Below, piece after piece: positions 2,620 to 37,593 of a DNA stretch of 64,000 bases. This DNA comes from Omphalotus guepiniiformis. Lineage: Eukaryota > Basidiomycota > Agaricomycetes > Agaricales > Omphalotaceae. Within the stretch, counting starts at the first letter, position 1; each line of letters starts with the position of its first letter. Under the pieces are notes generated by a model. It was not told where the DNA came from and searched no databases. It saw nothing but the letters and a program-made list of their open reading frames with translations. The translations under genes and the position numbers were made by a program. The stretch is from NCBI GenBank assembly GCA_028554645.1, contig JAQOOI010000031.1, positions 124,001-188,000 on the forward strand, in the 5' to 3' direction.

Positions 2620-3833
2620 ATGTACAACCAACCTCCCGCCCAGCATCAGTTCTCTAACACGCATAGACGCGTCGATCTTGAACAAGCGCCTCAATGGCGT
2701 CACCAATTCAGTTCGCCCAACACGGTTCCTTTTACGTCAAAGAACACATTCAATTCAGTTGGCCAGCATCACCTGCTGCCGGCTTCTCACGTTGAAGGTC
2801 TGCTCTACCTGCTTATTACAATCATTATTATGTATTCTAAGTGTGTACTAATTGATTCTAGGTTCACCTGTTAGTACCTGGCCACCGGCACCTTCGCTTC
2901 ACTCAAAACACCTTGAAACACAGTGGAGTCAAAGTGAGTATACGCTGTTTGTGCTCAATGTGAACATCTTCAAACTAATTATCCTTGGGAATAGATAGGT
3001 CTCAAAACCATTCACCATTTCCGCTTTCACAGACACCTGTGGGATCCAGACCTCCGTCTGCATATGGATTAGGCCCGAGATCTTTGGTGCAGTCAAGACC
3101 AGCCTCAACAAATCAGTTTTGGTCCGGCTCTCAGGTGTGTACCATGACTTTCGGGTTGGTACCAGTGCTCTGATTCTGTATTCTATTTGTCAGGGCATTA
3201 CACCGGCTCGTGTAGCATATCTTCAAACTGATATCAGTCCTCCTCCCGGGCGTGGTCAGTTTAGTCAATGGACCAACACAGCTTCTCAAGATCCCGCGTT
3301 CCGTCGAGTCGGCTCGAATACTCCTCAGCTTGCGTCTCCACATCGTCCTCCCTCCTCATTCTCTGCGTCTCCACATCGTCCTCCCTCCTCATTCTCTGCC
3401 TCTCCACATCGTCCTCCTAACTCCTCATTCTCTGCCCTCCCGCACACTGTTCCTACGACTCAGGTCAGAACGTCAATTTTAGAGCAGAACGACACTTCAA
3501 GGCAGTCCATCCCTCTCCAACCCTCTGCTGCGGCCAATGTCCACCAGCCAGTAGCTCGTCCAACCTCTAGGCAGAGCGTTCCGGAATTAAGATGGGATTC
3601 TACCATTTTATGTCGCAATGTCGATGCTGCCGCACTACCACGAGGACCTCCACCTATCATTCATACCCCAGCATTGGCAGAGGAGTCTGCTTCTACCACC
3701 ACCTCGAACCTGTTCGTACCTTTAACAGGTTCAAATGTTCCACCTGCATCCAATCGGACTATGCATCTCGACTCGCTGTTGCAGTCGGATGAAAATTCCG
3801 CGAGCTCACCTTCGTCAATCCACCCGCCTACGT
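2620..3833 (+). pseudogene. 5' part of host gene split by two retrotransposons
   Basis: Exons 2620-2797, 2862-2933, 2995-3134 and 3194-3833 splice in frame through GT-AG introns and encode a Pro/Ser/Gln-rich N-terminus with three tandem SPHRPPSSFSA-type repeats (about 3334-3440). The exon runs into the first LTR at 3834, where translation would end within the LTR. The same reading frame resumes at 18026 after the element and one copy of ACGT are removed, and again at 25848 after the second element. In the current allele the product is truncated, so I call it a pseudogene although the exons look undamaged. The complete gene spans 2620-26006, of which about 20.4 kb is inserted DNA. The family is unknown to me beyond being Agaricomycete-like. 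Confidence 0.75.
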
Positions 3834-5072
3834 TGATGTGCTTGGTATGGGGTATGAATGAGAAGAAGTGCTAACTAACTCGAATGAATCTATCAAGCAC
3901 TCAAAACACACACACAACACACAAAGACTTTTAAGTTCGTGGGGTTTGGGAGACCAACAAACTCTGTGAAGCGAATAAGGTTGTTGTAAGAGGAACGCGG
4001 AGACACAGTCAAAACCGACGCGGCACAGATAACTCTATGCTACACACCACTCAAACGAACTAACGCGTAACTTTAACAAATCACCGCGACCAGTGACTAC
4101 AAACGATACAACAACCAGACGATTGTTGGGAGATGCCAGACGACTTCTCACTTAGTGGAGTTGGGTATAGGAGGATTTCAGAACTGCCAGACGACGAGTT
4201 CAACGAGTGACCAGACGATCCACTCTTATTCGCACTACACACACAGGCTCCGCGGTACCAGACGATCCCGCTTGTAAACACTTAGGCACACTGACTTATG
4301 AACTAACGCGACGGTTAACACTTTAAAACTTCTAATCACTCAGAGGGACTTAAGCTTTTCCACACACAAATGCTATTAGCTCTATGGGGGGCTCGGGAAC
4401 CTGTCCTTCCTTGCCCAGGTTCTATTTCTTATATACAGTATCTCTATTTACATAGTACAAACAAATGTCGCGATACTTGACAGTTATGAGATATATGGTG
4501 CATATGGTGCACCGCGTAAGGTAGGGATGAAGTATAGTACGCGGTAACAGGGTATCCTATATCGGGTTATAATCTTGCCGCTTTTAGAAAGTATCGCGGT
4601 AGTTCGCTAACGCTGTGTCTCCTTACGTGTTCTACTTCCGCGTCGTCGGAAGTACTTCGTGTTACATCGTACGTCTAGACCCTTCTGTGGCTCAACAGTG
4701 GTCATTAGATATGACTAGTGCACGGAGCTACTGCTACCTGGTTTCTAAGTCTGGCCTTCTGAGTAGTGCCGCGGTACCTCGTTACCTACGCGTTGGTTTA
4801 TACAGTATTGGGGCCATCAAGTTATACACGTCGGACCTTAGAACAAGTGCCGCGACGCTTTACTTGAGTGCATACTTAGGTAATACCTACACTGAGAAGA
4901 CCCATTTAGTGCCGTTCTACAGTCTTGTACACCTTTGTACACATATACTAGTGGTTGAATGTGCGTAATACACCGCGGAACTTAGGACTATACAGTGTAC
5001 TTAGTAGGTTTGTACTGGAGTGATCAATCCCGCGAGGCCGAAAATGGTAGTGGTATTCCCGCGGTCGTATCA
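3834..5072 (-). repeat. 3' LTR (element sense) of the 14.2 kb Gypsy
   Basis: 1239 bp, matching 16783-18021 with two visible substitutions. It contains 17 CGCG tetranucleotides and five copies of CCAGACGA between about 4106 and 4268. ORFs inside it (for example 4615-4968) are identical in both LTRs but show no recognisable protein features and are left out. Confidence 0.93.
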
Positions 5073-5083
5073 TCTCCCCCTGA
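5073..5083 (-). other. polypurine tract
   Basis: On the minus strand the purine run AGGGGGAGA ends directly at the 3' LTR, the expected position for second-strand priming. Confidence 0.6.
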
Positions 5084-5453
5084 CTAAAATATCGACTGTC
5101 CCAGTCGCTGGGGTCCTACTCAGGGTCTATCCCGGAAAGGCGCATCAACCTCCCTTTTCTGGATATCACAAACTTCTTTCTGACTCATGTAGCGCTCTCC
5201 CTCCTTCTTGTCACATCACATGCCATCACGTTACCTTATTGGTAAATCGCCGCGTCTCTTCATTCCTCATCGTCCGGTTACGTTAGTTCCCGGACATACC
5301 GGTTATTCAGTTAATGGATTGCCATCGCTTCTTTGTCAAAGCTGTATGTCGTACCCTGAATAAGTGTGTAATACATCAAACTTTTGCTCTCGCGTCTTCT
5401 AGGAATGGAACTTGATACTGGCACCATTCTGAGGACCCCATCGCCGCGAGGTG

Positions 5454-5460
5454 TATATAA
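5454..5460 (+). promoter_or_regulatory. TATA box of antisense gene A
   Basis: TATATAA lies 58 bp upstream of the ATG at 5518 inside the retroelement, on the strand opposite gag-pol. This spacing suits an independent RNA polymerase II promoter. Confidence 0.5.
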
Positions 5461-5517
5461 CCTTCAGCGCCCGGGTGTCGAACTTCAACTTTTTGCTCCC
5501 TCTTTCATCACTGGTTT

Positions 5518-7795
5518 ATGCCTATCAAGGCTGAACCCCTTGACTATAACTCTTTAATAGTAAGTGACGCGGTACTTTTTGCGTGTCTTCTTTGCTTAGC
5601 TCCGTTTGATAGGCTTTTTCTCCTACTGCTTCTGAGGCCGCCTTTATTATGCCTTCTTCTCAACCCTCGACTTCACGCGTACACAAACGAAGACGACGCG
5701 ACGCTTCGCCTCGACCCTCTTCTACTTTGCCTTCCGTCCCGGACAGCTCACAGCGGTCTATATCCGCCGCGGAGCTTATCTTGCTTGAACAGATCCGTAC
5801 CGGGCAACTTTCCGTTCAACCTTCCGCGGTACTTCCCATTCCTTCGAACATTCCCGAGGCTTTAGCACCCGTACGCCGTCGTCGAGAGCGCCGTGATAAG
5901 GCTTTGTCTGTTCTCAAGAAACGTCGTGCTCGTCATCCTAGTCAATCTGCTCTGGTTAGTTCCGCGTTCGTTTTATCTGTTGTATTTAACTAACTTGCGG
6001 TAGCTTACTCCCGTTACCGCTGAGGATCAGGCAAAATTCGCCGATGACTTTTTGGCGTTCCGTGACGAGACCTATTCGCTCCCTCCCGCGACTCCTGTGC
6101 CTACTGCCGTTGCAACTCGTCCGCGGCCTCCTCGTACTTTGTCTGACTTGGAGCGCCAACCCTGGCCCACACGTCTAGTAAGTACTCCTTTGTTCCTTGT
6201 CTACTAACTCTTCTTCTCATTCTTATCCTTAGTTTGACGACGAGGCGGTCGAGTCTTCCAACGAGGGCTCTCCTCCTGCTGCCAAGCGTCGCCGTGGCCC
6301 TTTGCGCAAACGAGTAGAGAGTGATTCTGAGGCTTCCGCGGAGCCTGATAACTCCGTTGGTATTGTGGCTGCTGTATCCTCAGTGACGCGAGACTTGCCT
6401 CCCACAGCGCCAACTCCTCGCTTCGTGAGTAATTCCTGTTATTCCAACTAGTTTTACTCACTCTACTTCCCAGTCTTTTTCTCGTTCTCCCCCTCCTGTG
6501 GACTTATCGCAAGGGTTCACTGTTACTGCCGCGGAACCTTCGGTTCCTACGAACCTTATTCCTGTCACTCCTACACGGTCCCCACTGGTGGAATCTGGTC
6601 CCGCGCCTCTCACTCCTTCTGGTGTCCCAGCCGCATTTTCTCCTCTGACTAGTACCGTACCCGTTCCTCCTGCTGTACCTGTGCTACCTTCAACTTCCGC
6701 GGTTCCTTCTTCTGTGGCAGGACCCTCGACTTTCGTGGAGCCTCCTGCTACTACTCAGGTTGGAACCAAGGTGAGTTCCTTCCCTGTTTAAGCTGCTTCG
6801 TTGCTTATTTCTTTTTCAGGGCAAAAGAAAAGCTTCGCGGAAGTCTAAACTAGCGACAAAAACTACCGCGTCAACTATTCAAGAGGCCGACCGCTTTCGT
6901 ACTCCCTCTCCTCGCCCAGGCGACCTCGAAACTAGACGTCGGTTCCTTCGTGAAGTCGAGGGTTACCCCCAATATTGGTACGAGAAAGTTTTCCCCGCCG
7001 CGGAGCACTTTGGTGCCTTTATTCCTCACAACCTTCATCCCATCGAGAAGGGGGACAAAGCCACCACGGTGCCTACTACCGTTGGTGGCTCTTACGAAGG
7101 AGGGGTCCGCTGGTATACGGCTAACAACATCCCCGCAAATGGTTTCATTAACTATGACCTACCGGGTATGGTACCTCTGCTGATGACAAGTCACATTCGC
7201 CTTCGCCAGATTGTGGCTTCTTCCGTGAACCTGGTAAGTTCTTCGATACTTTTTCTTCTTACTTCTCTGATTACTTCTTAGCCCTCCATTCGCTGTGGGT
7301 CGTGCATTATTCACGGCAAGCCTTGCGTCTTCGTCAAGGCTGGGGAGTCATGTAACGAGTGTCTTAGCAAGAAGGACTCCGCGTGCACCTTTCGTTATGG
7401 GATTCGCAAGATCGCGTTGGAGGATGAAGCTTTTCACAACCGCGGACTCTTTTCTGCGCGCCGTATGTCTTCTCCCTTACTACTTTCCCTTTTCTCTGAT
7501 CTTTCCTTTAGATGCTATGTCTCTGCAACTTGAAGCGTCAATGCTTACTGACCGCTTGAATGAACAAGTTGCCGCGATGCACGGTATTCAGAAAATGGCT
7601 CAAGCCAAGATCGACGAACTCGCGGATGTTTTAGTACAGGGTTACTATAACTTCGGTCGCGACTATTTGACGCAGGTCCGCCTTAGTGGTGACCTTGCTC
7701 AAATGATTGTGGATGAGAAGATCCTGCCCGCCATCGAGGCTGGGCAGCTCAAATCAATCAACGCGGCATCCGAACATCAGGCATATCAGAAATAG
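5518..7795 (+). CDS. antisense accessory gene A: nuclear-type protein with Zn2Cys6-like cluster
   Basis: Eight exons (5518-5559, 5637-5954, 6004-6177, 6233-6424, 6474-6770, 6820-7233, 7282-7462, 7512-7795) join perfectly through GT-AG introns of 48-77 nt into a 633-residue protein with no frame break. The N-terminal third has Arg/Lys clusters (VHKRRRRD, VRRRRERRDK) suggestive of nuclear localisation. Then comes a long Pro/Ser/Thr-rich region and a globular segment containing EGYPQYWYEKVFP. In exon 7 the cysteines are spaced CX2CX6CX8CX2CX7C, which fits the fungal Zn(II)2Cys6 DNA-binding consensus. The last exon is helical and probably coiled coil. It is antisense to gag-pol, so its introns are not removed from the genomic RNA and can persist through retrotransposition. 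DNA binding is inference from the cysteine pattern. Confidence 0.85.
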
Positions 7796-8231
7796 TGGTC
7801 CCTGCCTTCTCTGTTCATTTTCTTGCTCTGGTTCCGCGGAAGTAAAAGCTCTTAGTCTCGTAGTGTTTGTAGTATCGCGGAGCTTGTTTGTTCTTTATTT
7901 TATTACTTGGAAATGTTATTAGCTTTGTCTCGAGTGATTTTAAACTGTGTGACATTTTCCTTGTTCTATAAAATCAAAAATATTCAAGAAATTCTACGCG
8001 GCACTTTTCCCAAATTCACGCGATTCTACGCGGTACTAAACTGTACGCGGTGCTTTCTATTCCTATGACCCTTCCCCATCTTTGAAATCACAACTGTCCC
8101 CAGTTGTTCAGAACACTCGCGACGCTTGGTAAAGTACCATATGTTCCACCGCGTCAACTTTGAAGGACGGTGCGCGGAATTAGAATTCTACGCAGACAAG
8201 TTTCCTTCTGGTCCAGACTGCCCTGGCCAGT

Positions 8232-8238
8232 TATAAAA
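8232..8238 (+). promoter_or_regulatory. TATA box of antisense gene B
   Basis: TATAAAA is 40 bp upstream of the ATG at 8278, again on the strand opposite gag-pol. It gives gene B its own promoter rather than read-through from gene A. Confidence 0.5.
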
Positions 8239-8277
8239 GGACCTCCAAACACTAAGTTCTTCCTATCTTAATCACTT

Positions 8278-9717
8278 ATGTCTACTGATACTTCTTCTGT
8301 TGACGTCCAGTTTCTCGTGGAAGAGGTAGCACCTCTTTACAAGTCGTTTAGCGAGCGTCGAGTCAAACGTGGTGCCGACGATGCTAATCGCGTCGCGATG
8401 TCGTGTGCACAAAAACTCGCAAGTTTTCTAATGTTCTGCCTTCTGTTCCTGCGCCTTACTTCACTCTTTTTAGCTCGAGCTCTGGAAAGCTCACCCTGAT
8501 GCCGCGTTGGCTAACGCTGACATTCGTACTTTCACTCTGTTCTTCTTTGAACAACTGCCGCGGGACCCAGTTACCGCGAAGTATACACCAACTCATCATT
8601 TACTTGGTCCGTACCGTGGTAAATGTGTTCAGTTTGGTAAACCCAAGGAGGTTCCCAAAGTCGCCGCGGCTGCTCCTGTTCCAACTGCTGTAACCCCAGT
8701 GCCCGTCAAAGGCAAAGGTCGCGTTCGTACTAGCCGCCGCGTAAGTAATCAGTTCTTTTTCTTGAATAACCACTGGTACTAAAACTTTTTCCTAGATTCG
8801 CAAGCGTATTGCATCCCAAGCTCGTATTGATAGTAGTGACGAGGAGGTTGACAACGACGCGGCGGGTAGCGATATTGCTATGGGTGACGATGAATCCCCC
8901 TCTATTGCAGATTCCACTACTAATACCACGGTAGGTCGCCACCCTACCCCGAGCCAGCTTGCTCTGTTGCTAAAACTATGTACCTCGCTTCAGACTCTCG
9001 ACCTCGCAGCAGTTGAAGAAGTTACCCGCGTTGCCCCCTTTACTCCAAAGGTTGAGCCTAGCGTTGCGGCAGTTAAAAGGGTACGACCACCATTCCTTCT
9101 CCCAATGTTATTCTGACTTAACGCTCCTTTCATAGCCTCACGCGTCGACTAATCACCTTGTAAGATATCTCCACTTTTCTGAGATACCACGCATGCTTAT
9201 TACTTCACGGCAATACCTTAAGGCAGTTGCCGCGGTGGATAAGAGTACCATCAATCCTCCTGCCAAGAAAGCTAAGATGGAGGTGGTTAGTGTCGCGGCA
9301 GCTCCTCCTACTTGGGCGCACAACTTCTCTATGCTCGATCCACCTCTGGCACCCCCTAGTACGTGTCACGTTTTCATACTGCCGCTAGCGACTTTTCAAC
9401 TAACCTATCTTTTGGTAGACCCTGTCTCCACTTTCTCTAACTCGGTTGTGCAGTCACTCGTTGATCGTGCCAATCTCGCGGTGCTCGAACCCGTTAGTGG
9501 GCCTACTGATCGTAGCCTCACCATGCTGGAGTTCGAGACTCGCTCTAAACTTATCGCGGTCAACCATCAGATCAGTCTCCAGCTCCAAATGCGGGATTTG
9601 CTGATGAAGAGCTACCAGAGCATCGCGTCGCAGCAGAAGGAGCTGGTTAATAAAACTAACGTTCCCCTTATCGATATGACTGGCGACGAAGATATGCCCT
9701 CCGTGACTGATACTTGA
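8278..9717 (+). CDS. antisense accessory gene B: basic/acidic protein of unknown function
   Basis: Exons start at 8278 and end with TGA 9715-9717. The first intron appears to be GC-AG (donor GCAAGT after 8418, acceptor TTTTTAG). The others are GT-AG, with one optional intron about 9160-9220 that is open if retained. The N-terminus is a compact helical region (LELWKAHPDAALANAD, FTLFFFEQLPRDP, GPYRGKCVQFGKP). A basic stretch (TSRRIRKRIASQARI) precedes an acidic one (DSSDEEVDND). The C-terminal part is helical with heptad-like spacing and ends in VPLIDMTGDEDMP. No known domain was recognised. It sits 163 bp from the convergent pol end and pairs with gene A in the same strand and style, so the two probably act together. 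Confidence 0.8.
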
Positions 9718-9879
9718 ACTGCTTCTGGAACTTTTCTTGTGCTTCCGCGACACTTTTTAATCTTCTTGTCGTGAATAGAGGTACCGCGTAACTTTCCGTT
9801 TCCCTTCCGCACTTGTATTCAAAGATCATACACTCGTTTTTATAATAAAACTGCCATGTGGCCCTATCTTTTGAGTGAT

Positions 9880-12800
9880 TTACTGAAAGATCTTCGGCTT
9901 CGATATCCAGTGCTTCGCGTCGTATACTGAAACGTCCGCGTGAATTTCACCATCTAGGTCTGCTTGATCGTGTTCTACGGATAAATCTTCTTCTTCTTCT
10001 TTTAGGTTCTCAGGGAGTTCAATGTGCGACCTTGGCCAATATGGAATTACGCGGAAGGCTCCGATTTTATTCTGGAACACCGCACCATTTAGGTCTGCCA
10101 CAATGTAACTGCCACCTGTGGTACGCCTGAGTACTACCATAGGTCCTAAATAGCGCGGCTTCGTTTTAGAGTTCAAAGATTTTTCAATCTGAGTATTCCT
10201 GACTAATACCAAACTACCTGGCTTAAACGCGTAGTCTTTAATAACATACTTATACTCTTTTTCGAACTTCAACAACCGTGACCTTTTCTCGCGTGTTATG
10301 CGTTCCCGCAATTCAACTACGTGCTTCGCGTGCTTAGCCAATGCTTTCGCCCGTAGTCCAATTAGTTCCGCGTCACTTATGAAATGATCAGGATATTCTA
10401 CAAGCCATGTTGCCTCAATGATATCAAAAGGTAGCGAGGGGTGCGCACCAGTTACTGCGAAGAATGGGGAGCACCCAAATCGCTTTCTTATGGTACACCT
10501 CCCGCGGCCTTTATGAGACTGTGTCGCACATCATAATGCGCGTGTTCCACGATACCGTTGGCTTGGGAGTTATAAGGTGATATGCGAATACCGCGCACGC
10601 CATATTTCTTCTCTAACCATTCCAACGCCTTTAGAAAAGGTCCGCCATTATCTGTTACTATCTCTATAAGACAGCCCCAGCGGCATATAATTTCTTCCCA
10701 CAACCACTGCCCAATCGCTCTTGCGGACTCTGCTTTCAACGGTCTTCCTTCCATCCAGCCGGTTAACGCGCACCTACCATGTACAATCAGCTTGTAGCCA
10801 TTCGACGCCGGCATATACATGGTGTCAGCGTGAATTTTCTGAAAGATTGACGGTGTCTTCGTCTCGGTAGGAGGAATCCTGATCTTTGTCTTTTGTCTTA
10901 CTTGGCACGTATGACAGGTCTTCACATACTCATAGATGTCTTTCTCCATTTCAGGCCACCAAAAGCGTTCCATAAGTAAGGATTTAGTAGCGAAGAAGCC
11001 GCGGTGCCCCAGACTATCATGACAAGCATGGATCATGGCGACGCGACGCGACTTCTCAACTACCAGCTTATGTTTTGCCTCAATTCCACGTCGATAGAGT
11101 TTTCCGTCTTGTATAAAGAAGTTCCGCGCTAACCTTAAAAAGTTCTTGAAGCGTTTGTTATTCTCATAGCCTACAGGCCTCTTAGAAGTGTCTGTTAGCC
11201 ATTTGAAAACCTCCGCGACTGTTTTATCTTGGTTTATCGCTCCCTTCGATCGCTTAGACTCATCATACTCTGTTTCGTCAATATGCTCAGGTGGCTCCTC
11301 GAGTTCTGGTACTTCACTAGCCAAGTTCGCGGCTACAAACTGTTTTACTTCTGGTATGTCGCGGAACTCTCGTTCTTGCTTATAAGCACGCGTCAATTCT
11401 TCCTTAAAGTCGTCTACCGACGCGGCTAAACCAGTCATATAATTACTTTTCCATTCCTCTTTCTCATCAACTAATACTTGCGCGTAACCATGCTTAGAGT
11501 CAATCTTATCTACAAACTCCTCTAATTTATAGGGTTCTTGAACTTCACCATCTTCAGGATTGTCATACTCATCGTCTCCTACTTGCTTATCCCGCCGTGA
11601 TAGTCCATCAGGTCCGTGAACCTTGCCTGGTACGTGCTTCAGTTTAAAATGAAACATCATGATCGACTCTATCCACCTATTTATCGCGGCGTTTGGCATT
11701 TGATCAGGATGCTCTAACATGCCTTTAATGTACTTCGCGTCAGTTTCGATTATAAGGTTGCGAATACCAAACAACCAATACTGGCACGCTCGTAACGCGC
11801 GATACAAACCAAACAACTCCCGTTTCGGCTGTGAAAACCTAGCTTCGCGATCACTTAGTGTAATCGAACCGAATCTGGAGTAGAACCTTCGTCGCGGATT
11901 CTCTGGATCCACTTGACAAATATAGAACCCAACCGCTTTCCACGACGTATCTACTGCCAATATAACAGGGTCTTCCACATCATACTTTAGTGGTCGTAAT
12001 GCCTTGCTATTCTTTACTGCCTCTTTCAACTTTGCCAACGCGTCACTTTGCTCTTGTCGCCATTCGAACGGAATATCTTTACGCGTAAATCGGGTTAAAG
12101 GCTCCGCGATCTTTGCATAGTCTTTGACGAACATTCTTACTAGTCCCGCGGTGCCTAAGAATGGTCTTATATCCTTCTCTTCTAGGATATTCTCAGGTCC
12201 ACCCCAGTTGGTAATAGTTTTCGCTCGTTCCGGGTCGATCTCTCTTCCTTCTCGTGTACACCTATGTCCGACCACGGTAATCTCGCTTTTACACAATACA
12301 GCTTTGGGGCCTGAGAAAGTCCCACCACAGTACTTCATTCTTTGAATGACTCTATTCATATTGGTGAAATGTTCCCAAATAAACCTCCGTATCCCATCAT
12401 TACCAGGAATGGTCTCGTACGTACCATCTTCACTTTGATAAGTCGTTTCAGGACCGCGTACAGGAACATCATCAATGTATGGTTGCGTAAACTCCGGGAT
12501 CTCTTCTTGTAATATGTGTGTTACATCATCGTGGAAGATTGGTACTGAATTCGTCCATCCCATCGGTAGTGTTACTAACCTCAGGGCTCCAAAGGGAGTC
12601 TGGAATGTAGTTAAGTCTCGCGATGCTATTGCCAACTCTCTTTCATCATAGCCAACATATAAATCTAGAATTCCTCCACAAGCTCTACCACAGAATTTCT
12701 CCGCGAGCTCTTCAGTAGCAGGCGGTATACCAGAATGTGCTATTGTTACCGCGTTCAACGGTTCCAGACTATGTACTAGTCGAATACTCTTTCCGTCTTT

Positions 12801-13721
12801 CTTTAACACCGCGAACCACTTCGATCGGTAAGACGAGTTCGATGGTTCGTAAACTCCCGCGTCAATCTTTCGTCTAACTGCCGCGCATACTTCATTAAAA
12901 ATACCAGGGGGAATAGGAATGTTCCTCTCAACCCAAGGTGTATGAGGTATCACTGGCATCTCTACAGAAGGAAAGAAATCGGTTCTGAATCTTCCGCGTT
13001 CACTGTCGTCCCACGCGAATCCTTTCTCTTGCTGCATCATCATATGATGCATCAACTTCCGTTCTTCTGGCCAAAGGAACTCTTCCTTATGTATCTCGTC
13101 TATTATCTCTTTACGTTCCTGAGTATACCTACCAGTCGGCGTGAATTCTGGAGGATTAGGCGAAAGCTGCGGCATATCAGCCAATGGATCTCCTTTAATC
13201 TCTCTTATGATTCTAAACTTCGATGGTAAATCTCCTAGAACAGGGCGTGTTTTCAACGCGACAGGTTTGTATTTCTTCCCTGCCAAGATACTAACTGGTT
13301 CGTAATGTTCCTTCCACAGCCGCGACGCGTGCCTCCTCACTTCATCTTTCATATCAGGGGATACATCAAGCATCGCGATGCTCCTTACATCAAACAGGGG
13401 AATTTGTTGTAACTCTTCTACGCCGTCTTCTAGCTCTATTTCTTGCACCGTGAAATTTGCTTGAGAGTACGCGGCAGGATTTTGCGCTCCATACACCGAA
13501 CTCAAATAGGATCTCAATACGGGTTTCGTCGTTTCTTTATCACTTTTTAGATCAATATACTTCTCCGCGGCAGATAAGTATAGATCGCGTAACTCTCGCT
13601 TCTCAAACTTTGATTTTTGCTCTTCGTTTATATCTGCAAATACTACATCACTTATGCCAATGGGAATACCTTCGTCATTTAATTCAAAAACCACCGCGGC
13701 TTCTCCTTGATCTGGGATCAA
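9880..13721 (-). pseudogene. pol (RT, RNase H, integrase) of the 14.2 kb Gypsy, frameshifted
   Basis: The main frame (10488-13721) carries RT with the YIDD active-site box, RNase H (VDTSWKAVGFYI), an integrase HHCC zinc finger (HACHDSLGH...CHTCQ), and a core with D (HADTMY), D (VTDNGGP) and E ([10 protein letters not shown]). It stops at 10488. The same protein continues one frame over from about 10500 through 9880 ([20 protein letters not shown], then a [26 protein letters not shown] C-terminal domain), so there is a 1-nt shift near 10500. A second shift occurs at an A5/T5 run near 13735 at the N-terminal side. Because the LTRs are nearly identical these are recent mutations, sequencing indels, or (less likely) programmed shifts. 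Confidence 0.85.
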
Positions 13722-14923
13722 TTCCTCGAAGCTGCTGAAAAACCCTGAGTCTGTTCCTTGTCTTTGCTTATAGGTACAGAACCTTTCCCTCGCTCATAGG
13801 TAGGTACAACAGCTCGCTTCTTAGTGTTAGGGTCCTGAATAACGAGGTCCTGCGTTCCATCTGCATGATTATCCACTAAACTCTCCGTGATCGTGTCAAA
13901 AGGCCGTCCCAGTAGCAATTCATACGCGGGGTCTCAAATTACGTGTACTTGTAAGTACACGGTGATTCCGCCTAGTAAGAATGGTACATTACGCGCCAAT
14001 CCCAAAGACTTCTCAACACCCTTGTTAGCCGATTGCATAAAGATTACTATGTCCGGGTCCCACGATAAACCTGCTTCGCGAGCTCTTTTCTCCGATGTAG
14101 AGATAATCTGTGAACCCGAGTCTAGTAGACTTTCGATCTTCGCGGTACCATTTACCAAAGGATACACGCATCGAAGCGACTCTGAATCTCTTGCCACGTA
14201 GATCTGAATTGGGTTATCTTTGCTTCCCAGGCTTTCCACGTACTGTTCAACTGGATCGCTAATCACAACCGCTCCTGCTGGAAGATCTCCTTCCGCCTGT
14301 TTCAGAACAAAAACTTCCGCGGTGACATTAAGGTCAGCTAACGCGACTGTATTTGCTGTTACGTGAACCTCTCCTACATTTTCCTCGCTAAAAGGTAATA
14401 GGGGGCTTTTGGCTAGGATCTCTCTCAAACCTCCCGCGGTCTCTTCAGGCTTCAATTTGACTCTTGACTTGATCGTTCCTCTGAGTGAAATTTCTGATTC
14501 CACTACTGTTTCTTCCGCGTTAGGATGTTTAGTTAACGGAATAACAGGAGACTCCGCGGCCTTCTCATTCCTTGTCTTCCAAATTATCCCCCTCGGGTTC
14601 TCTAACCGCTCTTTCTGAGCTTTCAGTTTCTCTTGCACAGTTGGCGAATACGACACATCAGGTACGTTTGCGTAAGGAACCTCTGGTACGCGGCTCTTCT
14701 TCACTACGGTAGGTAGTGGAGGCATCTCGACACCATCGAATCTCAAACGTTTTTCTTTCCTGACTAACTCCTTATACTTATCTTTCTCTAGGCTCGCGTC
14801 CTTTTCAGGTTCCGCGTCCTTTTCTTTCCACAACCGTCGTTCATTACCCTTGTTTTCAGTATCATTCTCAGGTGCCGCGGCCCTAACAGGATTTTTCTCT
14901 TTTGTAGGGGCCTGGCTTTCCAT
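13718..14923 (-). pseudogene. aspartic protease and linker of the 14.2 kb Gypsy, with premature stop
   Basis: The minus-strand frame from ATG 14923 has a charged N-terminus, then a retropepsin-like active site LLDSGSQIIS (about 14130) and an FLLGGITVYLQVHVI strand. It meets an in-frame TGA about 13934. The next codons read DPAYELLLGRPFDTITES, the expected continuation, so a CGA-to-TGA transition explains the stop. It begins 9 nt after the gag stop in a different frame. Confidence 0.8.
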
Positions 14924-14931
14924 CCTCGAAC

Positions 14932-16695
14932 TTACCGAAAACCCTCCTCGAACCTTCCTTTCTCATTGTTACTAACTGCCACGTTACTTATTGAATCTCT
15001 TGCCGACCCTCGAATATAGGCCGCGCTGAGATTGGATTCTAACACCCTTTCTTGAGCACGCTTCGCCTCTTCATATTCTTGCCAAACTCTAGTGTACTGT
15101 TTATTGTACGACTCGACCTCCTCTAGTTGCATCTGTAGTACCTCAACCTGAGAAGCTTGTACTTTCTTTTCAGACAGTCTTCGGTCCACAAAGTCTTTCT
15201 GAGGAGGCCCATTTGGAGCTTTCTGTGCTACTGGCTCTCCATCTGGCATACAAGTGATCCCTTCTTTCAAAATGATCTTTCCATCATCTACGTACTGCTT
15301 GCGTACCATACATTGCCCTGCCATATGTCCGTTTAAGCCACAGAACCAACACGTCGCGGCTCGAAAGTAGTCGGGACGGTTGTCATTCAACGCGGTTCTC
15401 CCGTAGTCCCGCGGCGCCATATAGGGTATACGTTCTGGATGCCTGGTACCGCTACTCGTTCCAGGTGCCGCGAGCTTTAATTGCTCTAGCAGTTTACCCA
15501 TCATTTCTTCTTCTCTCGTGGCTCTCTGGGTAAGGTTCTTTGTTTGAATCGTGATTAGATCTTTCAATTCCGCCACCCATCCTTCCGTTTGCTCATGCTT
15601 CACTTTTTCTACTTTCTTTCCTCTATCTTCCTTCGCGGACCTTACGTTCCCAAGACTAATTACTTCCTCAACCTGAGATCTCGCGTTAAATTCTGCCTCG
15701 TCCAGAATCTCTTCTGCTGTATAGGCATCATCTCTCGGTCTAGCCTCTGCAGGTGGGTTCGCACGCTTTTGTAACTTCAAAGTCAACGTGATGGATCTCC
15801 AAAATTCATCTTCAAACATTCCGCGGAGGACTCTGACAATTTCTCTGTTAGTATACAACGCGGTCGTAGTGTAGTGCTTAAGGAACGGCCTTAGGGTATT
15901 CCTCATTCTTAATACATCTTCGAGATCTTCCATCGTTATATTCTTATACTTCTTCGCGGCTCTTTCGAATTTTGCGAAGGAGAAAGTTCCCTCGTCCGAT
16001 CCTCCATCATAACTCTTCAAAATCTCGTCGCGGAACTCGATAAACGTCCCTTCCTCTTTCTCGTACGTAGGCAACGCCTTCCACTGTTCTCTTATAGTTG
16101 CGGGTAGGTAACGCAACGCGACTGATTTCTTATCCGCTTCTTCCTCTATTTTGAAATCTTGGATAATATCCTCAATCTCCCCCAGATAGTCTCTGACGTC
16201 GTCTACATCATGATCGCGACGCAAATCTGGTGCTCCACGTTCTCTTCTCCTCGGAATCTTATCCATAGCCGGCATTTTTATGATATTTTCTTGAATTATA
16301 GGTAAAATAGGTGCAGAGTTCGGTGAAATATGTAAATCAAATAGAAGTGTGTGGACTTCGGATAGTTCCTCGTCCGAATGAGAATGTCTATCAATAGTTG
16401 GTGGGACTACTGAGTTTCGACGCGACGGTGGGTCTGGCCTAGGAAATTGAATTGAAGTACCTTCTCCGTAATCAGATAGTTCTTCGTCAAAGTTCCGCGA
16501 CTGTCTAATACTCGAATCTTCCGCGTCAACTACGTTAATCGATTCTCGGGGTTGAGCAACAACTTCAGGATGTGACTTCCTGTAGCTACTAACTCTTTTG
16601 ATTGCCTTTGCACGTGCTAACGACTCTCTGGTATTCTCTACCGTTGAAGGCCGTGAACTTCGCCTAGACGTTTTGTCTGATTGTTGGTTAGACAA
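14932..16695 (-). CDS. Gag of the 14.2 kb Gypsy
   Basis: An intact 587-residue frame. It has an N-terminal Ser/Arg-rich segment, then a capsid-like helical region with repeated Trp/Leu-rich helices (YLPATIREQWKALPTYEKEE). A zinc knuckle CWFCGLNGHMAGQC (CX2CX4HX4C) typical of nucleocapsid sits near 15330. The C-terminal part is predicted coiled coil. Start at 16695 is 69 nt from the primer-binding region, consistent with a short leader. The pol frame follows in another phase, so expression of pol requires frameshifting, reinitiation or the GTAAGT at the gag stop acting as a splice donor. Confidence 0.85.
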   Translation of the reverse strand: MSNQQSDKTSRRSSRPSTVENTRESLARAKAIKRVSSYRKSHPEVVAQPRESINVVDAEDSSIRQSRNFDEELSDYGEGTSIQFPRPDPPSRRNSVVPPTIDRHSHSDEELSEVHTLLFDLHISPNSAPILPIIQENIIKMPAMDKIPRRRERGAPDLRRDHDVDDVRDYLGEIEDIIQDFKIEEEADKKSVALRYLPATIREQWKALPTYEKEEGTFIEFRDEILKSYDGGSDEGTFSFAKFERAAKKYKNITMEDLEDVLRMRNTLRPFLKHYTTTALYTNREIVRVLRGMFEDEFWRSITLTLKLQKRANPPAEARPRDDAYTAEEILDEAEFNARSQVEEVISLGNVRSAKEDRGKKVEKVKHEQTEGWVAELKDLITIQTKNLTQRATREEEMMGKLLEQLKLAAPGTSSGTRHPERIPYMAPRDYGRTALNDNRPDYFRAATCWFCGLNGHMAGQCMVRKQYVDDGKIILKEGITCMPDGEPVAQKAPNGPPQKDFVDRRLSEKKVQASQVEVLQMQLEEVESYNKQYTRVWQEYEEAKRAQERVLESNLSAAYIRGSARDSISNVAVSNNEKGRFEEGFR

Positions 16696-16763
16696 CCGCG
16701 ACTATAACTCTTCGGTCTCGTACGAAACCTAAAACACTTTACTTAGTTTATTAATCAGAAACC

Positions 16764-16780
16764 CCTCGCGGTGGGCTCCA
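16764..16780 (-). other. primer-binding site, tRNA type
   Basis: On the minus strand, two bases after the LTR, the sequence TGGAGCCCACCGCGAGG begins with the TGG expected to pair with a tRNA 3' CCA. I did not identify the tRNA species. Confidence 0.6.
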
Positions 16781-16782
16781 GA

Positions 16783-18021
16783 TGATGTGCTTGGTATGGG
16801 GTATGAATGAGAAGAAGTGCTAACTAACTCGAATGAATCTATCAAGCACTCAAAACACACACACAACACACAAAGACTTTTAAGTTCGTGGGGTTTGGGG
16901 GACCAACAAACTCTGTGAAGCGAATAAGGTTGTTGTAAGAGGAACGCGGAGACACAGTCAAAACCGACGCGGCACAGATAACTCTATGCTACACACCACT
17001 CAAACAAACTAACGCGTAACTTTAACAAATCACCGCGACCAGTGACTACAAACGATACAACAACCAGACGATTGTTGGGAGATGCCAGACGACTTCTCAC
17101 TTAGTGGAGTTGGGTATAGGAGGATTTCAGAACTGCCAGACGACGAGTTCAACGAGTGACCAGACGATCCACTCTTATTCGCACTACACACACAGGCTCC
17201 GCGGTACCAGACGATCCCGCTTGTAAACACTTAGGCACACTGACTTATGAACTAACGCGACGGTTAACACTTTAAAACTTCTAATCACTCAGAGGGACTT
17301 AAGCTTTTCCACACACAAATGCTATTAGCTCTATGGGGGGCTCGGGAACCTGTCCTTCCTTGCCCAGGTTCTATTTCTTATATACAGTATCTCTATTTAC
17401 ATAGTACAAACAAATGTCGCGATACTTGACAGTTATGAGATATATGGTGCATATGGTGCACCGCGTAAGGTAGGGATGAAGTATAGTACGCGGTAACAGG
17501 GTATCCTATATCGGGTTATAATCTTGCCGCTTTTAGAAAGTATCGCGGTAGTTCGCTAACGCTGTGTCTCCTTACGTGTTCTACTTCCGCGTCGTCGGAA
17601 GTACTTCGTGTTACATCGTACGTCTAGACCCTTCTGTGGCTCAACAGTGGTCATTAGATATGACTAGTGCACGGAGCTACTGCTACCTGGTTTCTAAGTC
17701 TGGCCTTCTGAGTAGTGCCGCGGTACCTCGTTACCTACGCGTTGGTTTATACAGTATTGGGGCCATCAAGTTATACACGTCGGACCTTAGAACAAGTGCC
17801 GCGACGCTTTACTTGAGTGCATACTTAGGTAATACCTACACTGAGAAGACCCATTTAGTGCCGTTCTACAGTCTTGTACACCTTTGTACACATATACTAG
17901 TGGTTGAATGTGCGTAATACACCGCGGAACTTAGGACTATACAGTGTACTTAGTAGGTTTGTACTGGAGTGATCAATCCCGCGAGGCCGAAAATGGTAGT
18001 GGTATTCCCGCGGTCGTATCA
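16783..18021 (-). repeat. 5' LTR (element sense) of the 14.2 kb Gypsy
   Basis: 1239 bp and begins/ends with the short inverted repeat TGAT...ATCA. In element sense it drives gag-pol leftwards. The downstream primer-binding site abuts it after two bases. Confidence 0.93.
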
Positions 18022-18025
18022 ACGT

Positions 18026-19579
18026 CGACACTTAATCCCACTTCAACGCTGCCATGTCAAGTGCCAATGGAAGCATTACAAGACCACAATGAGTCGCCAC
18101 AGTCCTCCTCCTCATTACCTCATGGTACATGGGCCATACCTTCATCTGCTCCGACATCCTCTGTTCGCCCCTCTATGGGCAGCGCTGAAAGACAGCTGAA
18201 GAGTCAGACTACTGACACAAAGCTTCGAGATGAGGTCTCAAAGCTTATAGACCAGCAAGTGGATGCAATGAACCATTTGGCCACCCAATTCCGAGTCCCG
18301 CTGTCTCGAGTCCGTCGGTTGATGGGCATACAGCGTACCTTTCGGTTTGCGAAGGACCCCAGCGCATACAATGCGGCGCTGTTCTACAAGGCCTCTGAGG
18401 TTAATAAAGGTATGCTATCCTTGTCTGTTTCGAGCATCTCACACTAAAAGCAGTCTATCAATCCTTTAGACCGACCTAAAGGACACAAGGTTCCTTTGAA
18501 AGAACTTCATACCCTACTTCAAGATGACCAGGACATGATGAAGGAGGTGAACAATCGGAAGTCAAAGAAGGTACAGCAATGGAAGGAGATGCTCAAGGAC
18601 GCGCGGGCTGATACGTTTGTGGGAACAAGAGGGTCAGGGAAAGCAGCGCAAGTTCACGGCACTGCGGTCTTGAGACGCTGCAAAGAAGAGGTGAGTAGTT
18701 GTTTCTTTTCCAGCAATATCTATGCTAACAAATACACATTCTCAGTGTGAAAATCTTTCCATTCAAACCGGCGCCTTCACCTTTGGCTTCATGTGCCAGT
18801 CCGACTTCAGAACTGATATCACACCAGCCTTCTGGGGCCAAGGACCGATGGAAGATTTTCTCATGGACCGATTCAACATGAATTGCTTCGACTTCGTCAA
18901 GGCTGCACAGGGATTTTCGCAGGTCAATAGTGTCGGAAGAAAGGGTCTTACCGCTGATACCATGAAGGCAGCCATAGCAAGTATGATTGGGAAAACACTT
19001 CGTGAGTTTCTTTGTATTCTAGTAAGGTATAATACGGCACGAGTAATAACCATACACACAGGGGAGATCACTGGAAAACCGAACATTAACATGGAGTACA
19101 AGCATTACAGAATCAAGATCGTCAAAAAATATCATGTCCACCTCACCCCCTGGCCCAACCACATCCCGTTTGGAAACGCGCACGGCCTCAAGCACGATGG
19201 GATGAAGGAGCTTTATGACCTGTTGAGGAGCGGTACCCTTCGATGGAAGGTCTTGAGTGCAGCAGAGTACCGAGAGATGATGAGGGAGTTAGAGAAAGAT
19301 ATCGAGCAGGGAAAGGTGGAGCAACCGAAGCGAGGGCCCCGTTGCGACAAGAATGGAAAGCACAAGAGTTCAGGCAAGAAGGGTAAGAAAAGACCTCGTT
19401 CTGCAGGAGATGGAAGAAGCTCTATCAAGAGAGCACGGACCAATCAACCCAAAAGCTCCGAGTTTGTCAGCGACAATCACCTCCGAAACGACGAACTTAG
19501 TGGTGATGAGGAGGAGAACAATGAGGAGGAGAACAATGAGGAGGAGAATGATGATGAGGAGAACAATGAGGAGCACCTC
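18026..19579 (+). pseudogene. middle part of the split host gene
   Basis: This continues the gene begun at 2620. Probable exons are 18026-18399, 18454-18690, 18746-19001 and 19062-19579. The 18400 donor (GTTAAT) is weak but is the only phase-compatible one I found. The protein has a charged region with LRDEVSKLIDQQVDAMNHLA, then a conserved-looking globular part (MCQSDFRTDITPAFWGQG, YKIVKKYHVHLTPWP-like, WKVLSAAEYREMMREL). It ends in a Lys-rich then Glu/Asn-rich low-complexity tail (EEENNEEEN repeats). The WP-N-x-PF motif followed by a helix with an LxxAEYxxMMREL pattern resembles multi-copy Agaricomycete hypotheticals. No enzymatic motif is evident. The exon is interrupted at 19579 by the second LTR element. 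Confidence 0.7.
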
Positions 19580-20031
19580 TGTCAGCGACTCGAGTTATAA
19601 ACTCAAATAACCAAACACAATGATCTTAGTTTTACACGAGTAAGAGAAAAGCAGAAAATGGAATTGAGAACAGAGACGATACAAGGAAGTATGCTAAGTA
19701 CAAGTCTAAACTCGAGGAGTTATTGACAAGATCGAAGCTAAAGAAATATCTACCTAAGCGGACTTATTATATACGTAAATAAAACCCTAAACCCTGGGCT
19801 ATAACCCTTGACTAATACACCGTGTGTCTACCATGAGTTCGATCGCCTCAAGTACTTCATTAATGATCGTGATCGCCTTGAGGTCTACATGCTTGATCTC
19901 GATCATCATGCTACATACGTATGTATTTAATATAACCCTAGATCTATAACTTACGATGTTATCTACTGATAATAAAAGTGTCTATATGTACAAACAATGA
20001 GATAAGATGAAAAAAGAAAACATTCGTAACA
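19580..20031 (-). repeat. 3' LTR of the chromovirus
   Basis: 452 bp. The pol reading frame runs into it and stops at 19982. It contains an AGGGTTTAGGGTTTTA-like telomere-style stretch in element sense. Confidence 0.93.
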
Positions 20032-23000
20032 TGACCCCCTCCTTAGGGACGGGACATCGTCCTAACTTCACTGCTAATGCTTCTGTCGGCATCTTCTTCG
20101 TTTCTACTACTTCCGTACATGCTTCAGGGATAGGTCGTAACAATGATGTCGGGAATAAGGAAATTGGGACCTCAATCTTTCTTAACTGAGGTGGTCGTGG
20201 TTTAGTGGGGAATTTTTTATGGAACTCTTCGATTGCTTCTTTTGCGTTTGCAAGGTTTGCTAATGGTTCCCATGTTTGTTCGTGCCGCGAGTATCCCTTC
20301 CATTGGACTTTGTATCCAAATCTCCCTCCCCTATATTTCCCTGAATCTACTATCTCTTCCACTTCGAACTCCGGTTCTTCTCCTTCTATCACTGGTGGCG
20401 GATTATCATTCTTAGGCTGCTCGGAGAATTCAGGCGGATGATAGGGTGACAGTAGAACTTCGTTAAAGACTGGATGTATCCTCTTCCAAGTCTTCGGTAT
20501 CTTTAGTTGATACGATGTCGCTCCAACTTTCTTTACGATTTCAAAAGGACCAAATCGTTTATCATCCAACTTCTTCATTGGTCGATCAGAAGTCAGGTTT
20601 GTCGCTTCAAGCCATACTTTGTCATTAGGCTTATATTCGACTGATGGTTTCCTCTTCTTGTCGTAATACCGAGTCATGTCTTCCTTTGCCTTCTTAAGCG
20701 CTGCCCCTACTTCATCCCTGATCTTGATCATCTTATCGGCAAATTCCTGTGCTGTGGGATTTGCCGACGGAGTTCTTGGAGCTGTTCCCTTATACGGATG
20801 TCGTCCCATATCCGCATAGAACGGAGTGACACCCGTCGCTGAGTGTATTCTGTCATTCAACACAAATTCTGCTGTTGGTAACCATTCATGCCAGTCGTTC
20901 TGATGTTGATTGATGAATAACCGGAGATAATGTTCAATCTCTTGGTTCATCCGTTCCGTCTGTCCATTCGTCTGTGGGTGATATGCCGTTGTGAAACTCC
21001 CCTGAATGCCTAATAACCGGTATAGTTCCTTCATGAATCGGGAATGATATTGAGGTCCCCGATCATGAATAATCTTTCTCGGTAATCCATGTATAGGAAA
21101 GATTTTGTCCCTATAGATTCTGGCCATTCCTTCAGACGTTAACGACATGTGTGTGGGTACCAAACGTGTTCGTTTGGTGAAATGGTCCACAGTCACACTT
21201 ATGGCATTAAAACCTCCAGCTTCCGGTAGTTCTCCGATCAGATCCGTTCCTATGACTTCCCAGGGACCTTGTGGAACATTGTTTGTGACTAGTGTTCCTG
21301 TTGGTTTGGTTCGATGAATCTTAGTGGCCTGGCACTTTTCACACCCTTTAACGTATTTCCGTACATCCTGAGTGATTCCCGGCCACCAATAGTTTCTTGT
21401 CACCAATTCCATGGTTTTGAACTGTCCTGGATGTCCCGTCAGAACGGTATCATGATGTAGTCCGATGATCTTTCCCCGTAACCTATTATCAATAGGCACG
21501 TAAATCCTATCCTGCCACGTCACAATTCCTTCCTCTGACTCGACCCAATCCTTCTCTTTTCCTTCTAAAGCCTTATTCACTAGATTATCCCGTACTTTTG
21601 ACTTTTTCTTGATAAGATCTAAGATCTCGTCTTCGGGCATCTCTAGTCTGTTGATCGAAAAAAGTTCCGGCTTTAAAAGTACCACATCCTCATTGTCTTT
21701 CTCCCCCGTCTCATGATTGGCCATCCTGGACAATGCATCTGGCTTTCCCATCGACTTTCCGGGTTTATGAATCAATGTAAAGTCATATTCGGATAATTCA
21801 GTGATCCATCGGGCTTGTCGACGATTCAATTTCTGAGGCTTTTTGAAATACTGAAGATTCTGATGATCTGTATAGATCTCAAATGACTCTTCCGCACCCA
21901 TCAGATACTGTCTCCAATCTGCTAAGGAATCCATAATGGCCATCATTTCCTTATCATAGATCTCATAATTACGTTCCGTTTCATTTAGAGATCTAGATCT
22001 GAATGCAATAGGCCACCATTTTCCATCTATCTTTTGCGATAAGACAGCTCCGTTCGCATAATCTGAGGAATCTGCCTCGACTCTGAATTGTCCATGATCA
22101 CGGGGTATGGTTAGAACAACTTCTTTGGCAATTCTACTTTTGAGTTCTTCGAATGCCTGCTGTTGCTGCTCTGTCCATTCCCACTTTGAATTCCCAGTCA
22201 GTGATGACAATGGTTTCGCCACTTGACTGAATCCTCGGATAAATCGTCGGTAGAAATTACAGAAACCCAAGAAGGACTGTACTTCCTTCTTGTTTCCTGG
22301 TATTTTCCATTCTTTTACCGCTTTGACTTTCTTTGGATCCATCCGCACTTGTCCGTTTCCAACAAACACTCCAAGGTACTCGACATTACTGGTCTCGAAT
22401 TCGCACTTTTCAGGTCTAAGATACAACTTGTGTTGTCGTAATATATCTAACACCTGTTTTACAATTGACTCGTGCTCTTCGATTGTATTTGTAAAAACCA
22501 AAATGTCGTCTAAGTACACCATGACATGACCTTCATTGATCAAATCCCTTAAGATATGATTCATGAATGCTTGGAAGGTCGCCGGAGAATTTGTGAGACC
22601 AAAGAACATAACCGTTGGTTCAAAGAGCCCCCGATTAGTCCTAAATGCCGCCTTCCACTCATCACCTTCTTTGATCCGGATATTATTGTATCCCCATCGA
22701 ACATCCATTTTCGAAAATACTTTCGAATCCTTCAGTTTATCAATGAGTTCTTGAATGAGCGGCAACGGGTATTTGTTCTTTATCGTTGCTTCATTCAATT
22801 TCCGATAATCCTGGACGGGTCGAAGTTTCCCATCTTTCTTTGCCACAAAGAAGAATGGTGAGGCCATCGGTGACTTTGATGGTCTAATTCGTCCAGATTT
22901 CAGATTTTCCTTAATGAACTCATCTAAAACTTTCTGTTCCGAAGGATTTAATGGATAAACCTTGCAATCTACTGGCGTAAAGTCTGGCTTCAGTTCAATT

Positions 23001-24855: not shown

Positions 24856-25375
24856 TCTGATAGGAGTATGAGGTCGGGTAGAATAGGGAGATGATGCAAG
24901 AGATTTGTATGAAGGTGTGACAGGTGATGGGATAGTGGTTTCTTCGAAGAGACTGCTAAAGTTCCCCCAAGATTCCGTAATGGTAGAGTTTACTTCGGTC
25001 CGTCAGTAACCTCACGAAGAGATTTCGGGACCTTTTCTGCCTCTAATAGACGAGTTCCTAATCTGTGCTTGCTTGCTGAGTAAACCTGGGCGTGCCTTTC
25101 TAGGAGTGCACCTCGTTCCCCAAGCGCAAAGTCCCCTCCCCGAAGGTTGGTTATCAGACGATGCTTTCTGCTGCCAGTACCGAGTCGGACTCAACGTTAC
25201 TCGTTTGTACTATAGGCGCAATTACTCTAATGGAGCACAGATTCCTAATTCAGACGGAAACCCGAATATCAAAGGGAGAAAATGAAGTAAGCGTGTGAAG
25301 GTGAAGAGAAACTTACTTGCTACTGAAATAGCAACAAGAAGGCAAACTTGAATTGTGTTGGTCGGGTGAGTTGTG

Positions 25376-25390
25376 TTAGCTTCGATCTTA
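25376..25390 (-). other. self-priming primer-binding site
   Basis: Immediately inside the 5' LTR the minus strand reads TAAGATCGAAGCTAA. Fourteen bases are an exact reverse complement of an LTR segment at 25539-25552 just downstream of the TATA box. It does not start with TGG. This is the arrangement used by Tf1 of fission yeast, where the folded 5' end of the transcript primes reverse transcription. Confidence 0.65.
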
Positions 25391-37501: not shown

Positions 37502-37562
37502 AACCAGGTTTGATTAATCAGTTTCGGTCATGCCCAAAATATGATCTGCATTTGAAACAGTA
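37502..37562 (+). repeat. left terminal inverted repeat of KDZ element
   Basis: Matches the reverse complement of 58786-58846 at 58 of 61 positions, with differences at 37508, 37521 and 37550. Similarity outward of AACCAG is weak, so the outermost 8-9 bp are less certain. Confidence 0.8.
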
Positions 37563-37593
37563 CCTGTAACTGGATTATTAATATAATTTAAGA

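Follow-up and report, generated by a model that had tools for sequence, protein, structure and literature searches.

A recurrent antisense gene pair and family-specific DNA motifs in Ty3/Gypsy-type retrotransposons of Omphalotus guepiniiformis: a possible system of element self-recognition

Introduction

A 64,000-nucleotide stretch of the Omphalotus guepiniiformis genome (GenBank assembly GCA_028554645.1, contig JAQOOI010000031.1, positions 124,001 to 188,000; hereafter "the window") contains a complete Ty3/Gypsy-type long terminal repeat (LTR) retrotransposon at 3834-18021, with gag-pol on the minus strand. Two multi-exon genes, A and B, lie opposite to gag-pol between the integrase and the 3' LTR. 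Here, we show that this antisense slot and its orientation recur in four pol groups of the genome, two of them sisters, that each family is rich in its own short DNA motif, and that gene A occurs as deeply diverged alleles in elements that are otherwise 96-100% identical. These observations raise the possibility, to which we give about an even chance, that one or both of the encoded proteins use the motif to recognise the DNA of their own element and so keep its chromatin open or switch on its transcription, as VANC proteins do for VANDAL transposons of Arabidopsis.

Results

The antisense genes of the window family are intact and under purifying selection

Gene A occupies positions 5518-7795 of the plus strand and consists of eight exons separated by GT..AG introns, which join into an unbroken frame of 641 amino acids. 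Gene B (plus strand, 8278-9717) has five exons and encodes 404 amino acids. A preliminary description of the window had proposed two multi-exon antisense genes in this slot, each with its own TATA box and with A free of frame breaks. The gene pair and the unbroken frame held, and TATA-like boxes were recognized by eye at 5454-5460 and 8232-8238. When the exon models were projected onto other copies of the window family, gene A was open in 14 of 16 rows and gene B in 22 of 23, the window included in both counts. The A frames of L023 and L024 are broken under this projection, through either real indels or misplaced exon borders, and L032 carries a one-base shift in B. The A projection dropped L022 as partial and left out the diverged allele class described below; six further copies were left out for B. 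The first intron of gene B (window 8419) has a GC donor in the window copy and in L012, and a GT donor in seven more diverged copies (L017, L021, L023, L024, L026, L027 and L034).

The ratio of nonsynonymous to synonymous substitution (dN/dS), a comparison that the preliminary description had suggested, was low. For gene A it was 0.085 (L021), 0.092 (L025), 0.094 (L023) and 0.114 (L024) against the window copy and 0.117-0.154 among L021, L023 and L024, so that the seven diverged pairs span 0.085-0.154; introns of A diverge by up to 34% between copies. Gene B gave 0.08-0.23 for the more diverged rows, and the ratio is noisy for near-identical ones (above 1 for L017, and no synonymous change in L012). 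Genes A and B of the window family are real genes under purifying selection.

The antisense module recurs in four pol groups

We searched the genome (42.5 Mb in 80 contigs) with the pol protein of the window element and obtained at least 42 matching rows, 33 at 95-100% identity and 9 at 51%; 42 of 576 candidates were scored, and a few rows are pieces of one copy. A second search, with 877 pol residues of the 51% family, gave 54 rows and added groups at 68% and 69%, which are sisters about 92% alike in pol. Full exon models were built for the window family, and A and B of the 51%, 68% and 69% groups were read from open frames.

A gene A match lay no more than 7 kb downstream of pol at 43 of 52 places, and in 42 of these 43 it was on the opposite strand. 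In the single same-strand pairing the two are 6.4 kb apart and the A belongs to a neighbouring element. Nine pol rows had no A within 7 kb, and two A matches lay within 7 kb upstream of some pol. This pairing took in 52 of the 54 pol rows and 92 of 133 A rows, the rest being judged by eye to be second pieces. Weak A matches, of the type found in the 68% and 69% groups, gave the same picture: 39 of 52 lay downstream of a pol, all 39 on the opposite strand (from 58 pol rows and 56 weak A rows, of which 51 and 52 entered the pairing). Thirteen of the 52 had no pol within 7 kb; by eye, ten of these have a same-strand B within 9 kb and three do not. These three of 52 may be stand-alone A genes. The preliminary description had suggested testing whether homologues always lie antisense between integrase and an LTR; in this genome the orientation was opposite at nearly every paired place (42 of 43 and 39 of 39). 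A one-off capture of A and B, the possibility that the preliminary description had set against its own reading, is rejected, the A/B slot being shared by four pol groups.

With the last exon of gene B as query, identity reached 100% in the 51% family and stood at about 34-41% in the 68% and 69% groups. A further set of matches at about 30% (C20:2173344, C46:82753, C72:245681 and others) likely marks another family with an antisense B.

Each family is dense in its own motif

The region 3834-16782 of the window element contains 151 CGCG sites (11.7/kb), compared with 2.7/kb in the remaining window minus two control elements, and the density falls at the element's LTR edges. Likewise, 31 of the window's 37 CCGCGG sites are inside the element. 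GCGC is not enriched (2.0 versus 3.5/kb). The 51% family (C20:1855000-1871500) has a different word, TC(G/T)AGC (TCKAGC), at 5.5/kb versus 0.7/kb. In the sister groups the word is GAGTTAGATACT: allowing up to one mismatch, two 9.9-kb stretches hold 11 sites in the 68% group and 10 in the 69% group, with 0.04 expected, and the window holds one. Exact copies of GAGTTAGATACT number 644 genome-wide, versus 8 for the reversed control (the places given are the first ones, so location inside elements is not established for all 644). Outside its own family or sister group, none of the motifs reaches a high density.

These densities exceed what base or codon composition produces in shuffled sequence. 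CGCG reached a z-score (z) of 22 and CCGCGG of 24, compared with maxima of 4.7 and 6.4 in 20 dinucleotide shuffles. In 500 codon-preserving shuffles, the 1101-codon pol frame gave 13.8 ± 3.2 CGCG (maximum 24; observed 41), the exons of gene A 10.4 ± 2.4 (maximum 19; observed 22), and TCKAGC in the 877 pol codons of the 51% family 5.7 ± 2.0 (maximum 12; observed 18). The best 6-mers of the four groups had z of 9-24 and the best 7-mers 12-17, compared with 5.0-6.9 and 4.9-7.9 in two LTR elements and two host stretches taken from the window as controls (10 shuffles), where they stood at or slightly above their own shuffles. An expectation-maximization motif search recovered CGCG, found a weak two-form motif in the 51% family and drifted into low-complexity sequence in the 68% and 69% groups, whose GAGTTAGATACT comes from a direct listing of sites.

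The motifs are evenly spread, with no clustering (Kolmogorov-Smirnov p = 0.96, 0.80, 0.14 and 0.20), over all the parts read: LTRs, pol and antisense genes. Both strands carry TCKAGC (43 and 32 of 75 sites) and GAGTTAGATACT, with 15 of 21 GAGTTAGATACT-like sites in the gag-pol sense.

The families also differ in CpG content, at 61 per kb in the window family, 40 in the 51% family, 30 in the 68% group and 27 in the 69% group. A possible explanation is that these differences are the trace of different methylation histories. The genome has two partial cytosine-methylase matches.

Gene A exists as diverged alleles in near-identical elements

The element at C74:745600 ff. matches the window copy at 100% over 157 LTR bases, 99.8% in the A leader, 98.3% in B, 97% in integrase and 99% in pol. 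Within A, only short pieces align as DNA, and the protein is 44-49% identical by piece outside the six-cysteine exon (exon 7). A second such element, C74:729600 ff., is 98.7% identical in the LTR, 96.9% in the leader, 96.0% in B and 100% in pol, with an A of 41-44%; the A-B spacer is about 83-85% alike. These two A alleles are 81% alike in DNA. In the six-cysteine exon, by contrast, C74:729600 keeps 85% identity to the window copy, with a dN of 0.10 at a saturated proportion of synonymous differences of 0.76; across the allele comparisons dN in this exon is 0.10-0.12 and that proportion 0.76-0.77. The same pattern was found in the 51% family, where the element at C76:1131700 ff. has an A of about 46-57% identity by piece, with B frames 99.5% and pol 100% identical. 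Old A alleles in near-identical elements point to recombination; perhaps A is exchanged by template switching between co-packaged RNAs.

Both allele classes of the window family are rich in CGCG (12.4/kb in the L040 stretch, which is mostly diverged A). The L045 stretch, which includes B, has TCKAGC at 3.7/kb.

The window copy lost three sense introns and kept eleven antisense introns

The window copy lacks three segments of 58, 54 and 52 bp on the gag-pol strand. Wherever both anchors could be placed in another row, the segment was there (34, 35 and 34 rows at other loci, with some copies represented twice). On the gag-pol strand the segments start with GT (GG in one row) and end with AG. Because three such segments, kept by every other anchored row, are missing, the window copy or its parent was most likely made from spliced gag-pol RNA. 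The third segment is coding elsewhere, and its absence breaks the integrase: the pol frame has 1101 amino acids in the window copy versus 1337-1340 in 20 of 21 rows that span the full query (1/2-1099), one of the 20 having an inner stop. The gag-pol damage noted earlier in this copy is the absence of these three GT..AG segments.

All eleven introns of A and B are present in the same copy. The earlier proposal that antisense placement explains how introns survive retrotransposition is thus supported, since one copy lacks three sense introns and retains eleven antisense ones. The window copy is a natural intron-loss experiment that shows why such genes sit antisense.

The six-cysteine exon has no Pfam match

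An exon with six cysteines is found in gene A of all four pol groups. The Zn2Cys6 consensus is CX2CX6CX5-12CX2CX6-8C, which the window spacing CX2CX6CX8CX2CX7C fits; the 51%, 68% and 69% groups have other spacings. The genome has 34 Zn_clus (PF00172) matches, none of them at the listed A loci when compared by eye. Compared with Gal4-type Zn2Cys6 factors, A shares the six cysteines and, in the window, the spacing, but it has no PF00172 match and, by eye, no basic run between cysteines 2 and 3. The cluster was originally called Zn2Cys6-like; the likeness holds for the six cysteines and the window spacing, and does not extend to a Zn_clus match or to the spacings of the other groups.

Transposase 28 (PF04195), the domain of plant Retand TRP28, had no Pfam match in A, in the A fragment of the 51% family or in B. 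A PDB profile search with the six-cysteine exon returned a ferredoxin at best (E = 0.11), which we take as chance. Gene A had no match at E ≤ 1e-3 among 7997 candidates scored from a set of 5.8 billion proteins, a result of low weight because the fungal content of the set is not established.

Discussion

Proposed self-recognition and known systems

We propose that one or both proteins would enter the nucleus and, on every copy of the element, attach to the numerous sites of its family's motif. Binding would hold element chromatin open or switch on transcription, in a form of anti-silencing or self-activation. Recognition would come from many weak sites, covering the whole element and remaining specific to the family, as for VANC on the VANDAL DNA transposons. 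The conserved six-cysteine exon of A would read DNA, and its variable remainder would interact with a host partner or silencing factor that itself changes over time. In this view the elements belong to a clade of Ty3/Gypsy-type retrotransposons with a heritable antisense module of two genes: A, which has basic stretches as well as the six-cysteine cluster, and B. Each gene apparently has a promoter of its own. We favour such element-encoded recognition because private words, a variable gene with a cysteine exon that is conserved in the window family, a conserved partner, and the two partial cytosine-methylase matches of the genome fit its prediction. A more specific form, which we offer tentatively as possible, is a two-protein system of a fungal LTR retrotransposon clade in which one partner would read the family's word, mark every copy as self and so defeat host silencing. 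The other surface of A would exist in old allelic versions that can replace one another through template switching, comparable to immunity or compatibility types, and the whole would have an origin independent of VANC.

According to excerpts of PMC5735166, VANDAL21 and VANDAL6 of Arabidopsis are each dense in their own motif (YAGTATTAY; AGTTGTCC/AC) bound by their own VANC, the protein and its targets evolve together, localisation depends on motif density, and VANC21 motifs lie mainly in non-coding parts. The elements described here likewise have a dense family-specific motif and a variable gene. VANDALs are DNA transposons and here the element is an LTR retrotransposon; the likeness that we draw is one of function.

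Antisense open reading frames between pol and the 3' LTR are known from plant Tat/Retand/Grande elements; excerpts of PMC7264820 and PMC11963269 describe Retand TRP28 as probably able to bind DNA and treat the function of antisense genes of LTR retrotransposons as undetermined. The Omphalotus elements share the slot, the strand and a long region between pol and the 3' LTR, but differ in having two genes (of 8 and 5 exons), a six-cysteine cluster in place of TRP28, diverged A alleles and a motif that is private to each family and runs along the element. Boty (BcGypsy1) of Botrytis cinerea resembles them as a fungal Gypsy-type element with an additional antisense gene. For Boty, Zhao et al. 2011 reportedly describe a single antisense gene, brtn. 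The gene is mentioned in an excerpt of PMC8365987, and the title by Zhao et al. stands among the references of PMC7264820, as far as excerpted. The preliminary description named no described fungal element with an antisense pair of this kind; a fungal element with a single antisense gene is thus already reported. The comparison with brtn is by description and not by sequence, and one gene is named in the title. In the open-access literature we found no report of such a fungal antisense pair or of motif-based anti-silencing by LTR elements. Antisense genes in this slot are known in plants and, singly, in Boty; we met no counterpart in that literature to a multi-exon pair found across four pol groups, to private motifs or to diverged alleles of A.

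Several observations weigh against self-recognition by A and/or B. Motif and gene type share family history, so their covariation is confounded, and the motif test drew on only three distinct families, of which one has a sister group, and on two control elements, both short. Gene B tracks family even more closely than gene A, so the reader could be either. The Pfam search found no domain in gene A or the A fragment of the 51% family, including Zn_clus/PF00172, and only one unrelated sub-threshold match in gene B; the AlphaFold model of the six-cysteine exon was uninformative (mean predicted local distance difference test score 47) and was not used. In the 51% family the alleles agree at only about 63% in this exon, hardly more than in the remainder of A. 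CGCG in the coding sequence of gene B (15, versus 7.9 ± 2.1 in 500 codon-preserving shuffles) merely equals the shuffle maximum of 15. CGCG occurs twice in the 577 bp of A and B introns and three times in the 445-bp A leader, and the evenly spread motifs extend into exons (22 CGCG in A, 15 in B), unlike the mainly non-coding tandem repeats of VANDALs. Single CGCG sites are conserved between copies no better than other 4-mers (45/54, 33/54 and 28/54 versus means of 0.83, 0.61 and 0.60), so conservation of individual sites is not supported. All four control best 4-mers (z 5.0-9.7) exceed their own shuffles, and for this reason the excess of a 4-mer says little by itself, CGCG at z 22 being the exception. 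The 51% family gives a weaker, two-form signal; the best 4-mer of this family (z 8.7) stands below ATAT of a host stretch (z 9.7).

Other explanations

The same recognition could have the opposite sign, with A and/or B binding the motif to repress the element for copy-number control or superinfection immunity, and with A exchange letting a newcomer escape, as in phage immunity types. Family-specific motifs fit such a repressor, and diverged A alleles in elements with 96-100% identical LTR or leader, B and pol in two families fit immunity-type switching. Escape should alter both the reader and its sites, however. In the window family the alleles have in common precisely the likely reader, the six-cysteine exon, and both allele classes are CGCG-rich; we consider this explanation unlikely. 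We think it rather improbable that the motifs are sites for a host DNA-binding factor, acting in transcription, insulation or nuclear positioning and recruited per family, with A and B doing something else. The lack of a Pfam DNA-binding domain in A and B and the uninformative fold model are consistent with a host factor, but families of one genome have different motifs and lack each other's, which element-encoded readers fit better, and the motifs extend into coding regions.

That the motifs act in RNA, in Gag packaging or export, with the antisense genes as unrelated accessory genes, is very unlikely in our view: CGCG is palindromic and TCKAGC occurs on both strands (43 and 32 of 75), even though 15 of 21 GAGTTAGATACT-like sites are in the gag-pol sense. 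Finally, the antisense genes might be passengers captured from the host, and the motif bias might stem from codon usage or base composition. Retroelements are known to transduce genes (plant review PMC7264820, in excerpt), and three of 52 weak A matches stand without pol or B nearby. Given dN/dS near 0.1, one slot in four pol groups, motif counts in pol and A that dinucleotide and codon-preserving shuffles miss, and the absence of GCGC enrichment where CGCG is enriched, this explanation is scarcely credible.

Self-recognition by A and/or B is directly testable, as one genome offers three families that differ in their dispersed motifs, one of them having a sister group, and two naturally occurring sets of diverged A alleles. 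If it is true, sequence-specific anti-silencing arose more than once, in both great transposon classes.

Structure of the host element and other features of the window

The features of the element are collected in Table 1. A Pfam search of pol returned RNase H followed by Integrase_H2C2 and no reverse transcriptase row in the window element, and the Ty3/Gypsy-type class rests on the LTRs, the target site duplication and RNase H before integrase.

Table 1. Features of the window element and its antisense genes (window positions).
Feature	Position	Strand	Basis or remark
Full-length Ty3/Gypsy-type LTR retrotransposon, 14188 bp	3834..18021	-	LTR pair, target site duplication, pol; antisense pair inside, CGCG-rich throughout
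3' LTR, 1239 bp, TGAT...ATCA	3834..5072	-	versus 5' LTR: 2 substitutions, 0 gaps
5' LTR, 1239 bp	16783..18021	-	LTR pair alignment
Target site duplication ACGT, left copy	3830..3833	.	flanks LTR
Target site duplication ACGT, right copy	18022..18025	.	flanks LTR
Purine-rich stretch adjoining 3' LTR, which we take to be the polypurine tract (putative)	5073..5082	-	sequence
Likely primer binding site adjoining 5' LTR	16763..16782	-	inferred from position; no tRNA matched
pol frame up to N part of integrase, 1101 amino acids, shortened by third missing segment	10488..13793	-	open reading frame, Pfam RNase H + Integrase_H2C2
Remaining integrase, second frame	9880..10530	-	open reading frame, position, other copies
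gag/protease region	13934..16700	-	inferred from open reading frame 13934-14962 and position
First missing GT..AG segment, 58 bp in other copies	9822..9823	-	
Second missing GT..AG segment, 54 bp in other copies	10001..10005	-	
Third missing GT..AG segment, 52 bp, coding in other copies	10496..10500	-	
TATA-like box upstream of gene A	5454..5460	+	sequence, by eye
Gene A exon 1	5518..5559	+	
Gene A exon 2	5613..5954	+	
Gene A exon 3	6004..6177	+	
Gene A exon 4	6233..6424	+	
Gene A exon 5	6474..6770	+	
Gene A exon 6	6820..7233	+	
Gene A exon 7, six-cysteine cluster CX2CX6CX8CX2CX7C	7282..7462	+	best-conserved A part between the window family's two allele classes
Gene A exon 8 with stop	7512..7795	+	
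TATA-like box upstream of gene B	8232..8238	+	by eye; kept in aligned copies, one with an extra A
Gene B exon 1	8278..8418	+	GC donor after it in window copy
Gene B exon 2	8474..8740	+	
Gene B exon 3	8796..9080	+	
Gene B exon 4	9136..9358	+	
Gene B exon 5 with stop	9419..9717	+	

Open frames on the plus strand on either side of the insertion (2999-3833 and 18022-19600) resemble parts of one gene interrupted by the element. Two further direct repeat pairs, at 19580-25690 and 40647-45911 (300 nt reported, 99-100% identical), were taken as LTR elements and served as the element controls for the motif counts. The window also contains short tandem repeat arrays at 26672-26868, 38647-38964 and 57620-57904, and a 64-bp inverted repeat (37502-37565 and 58783-58846) whose arms are 94% complementary and 21 kb apart.

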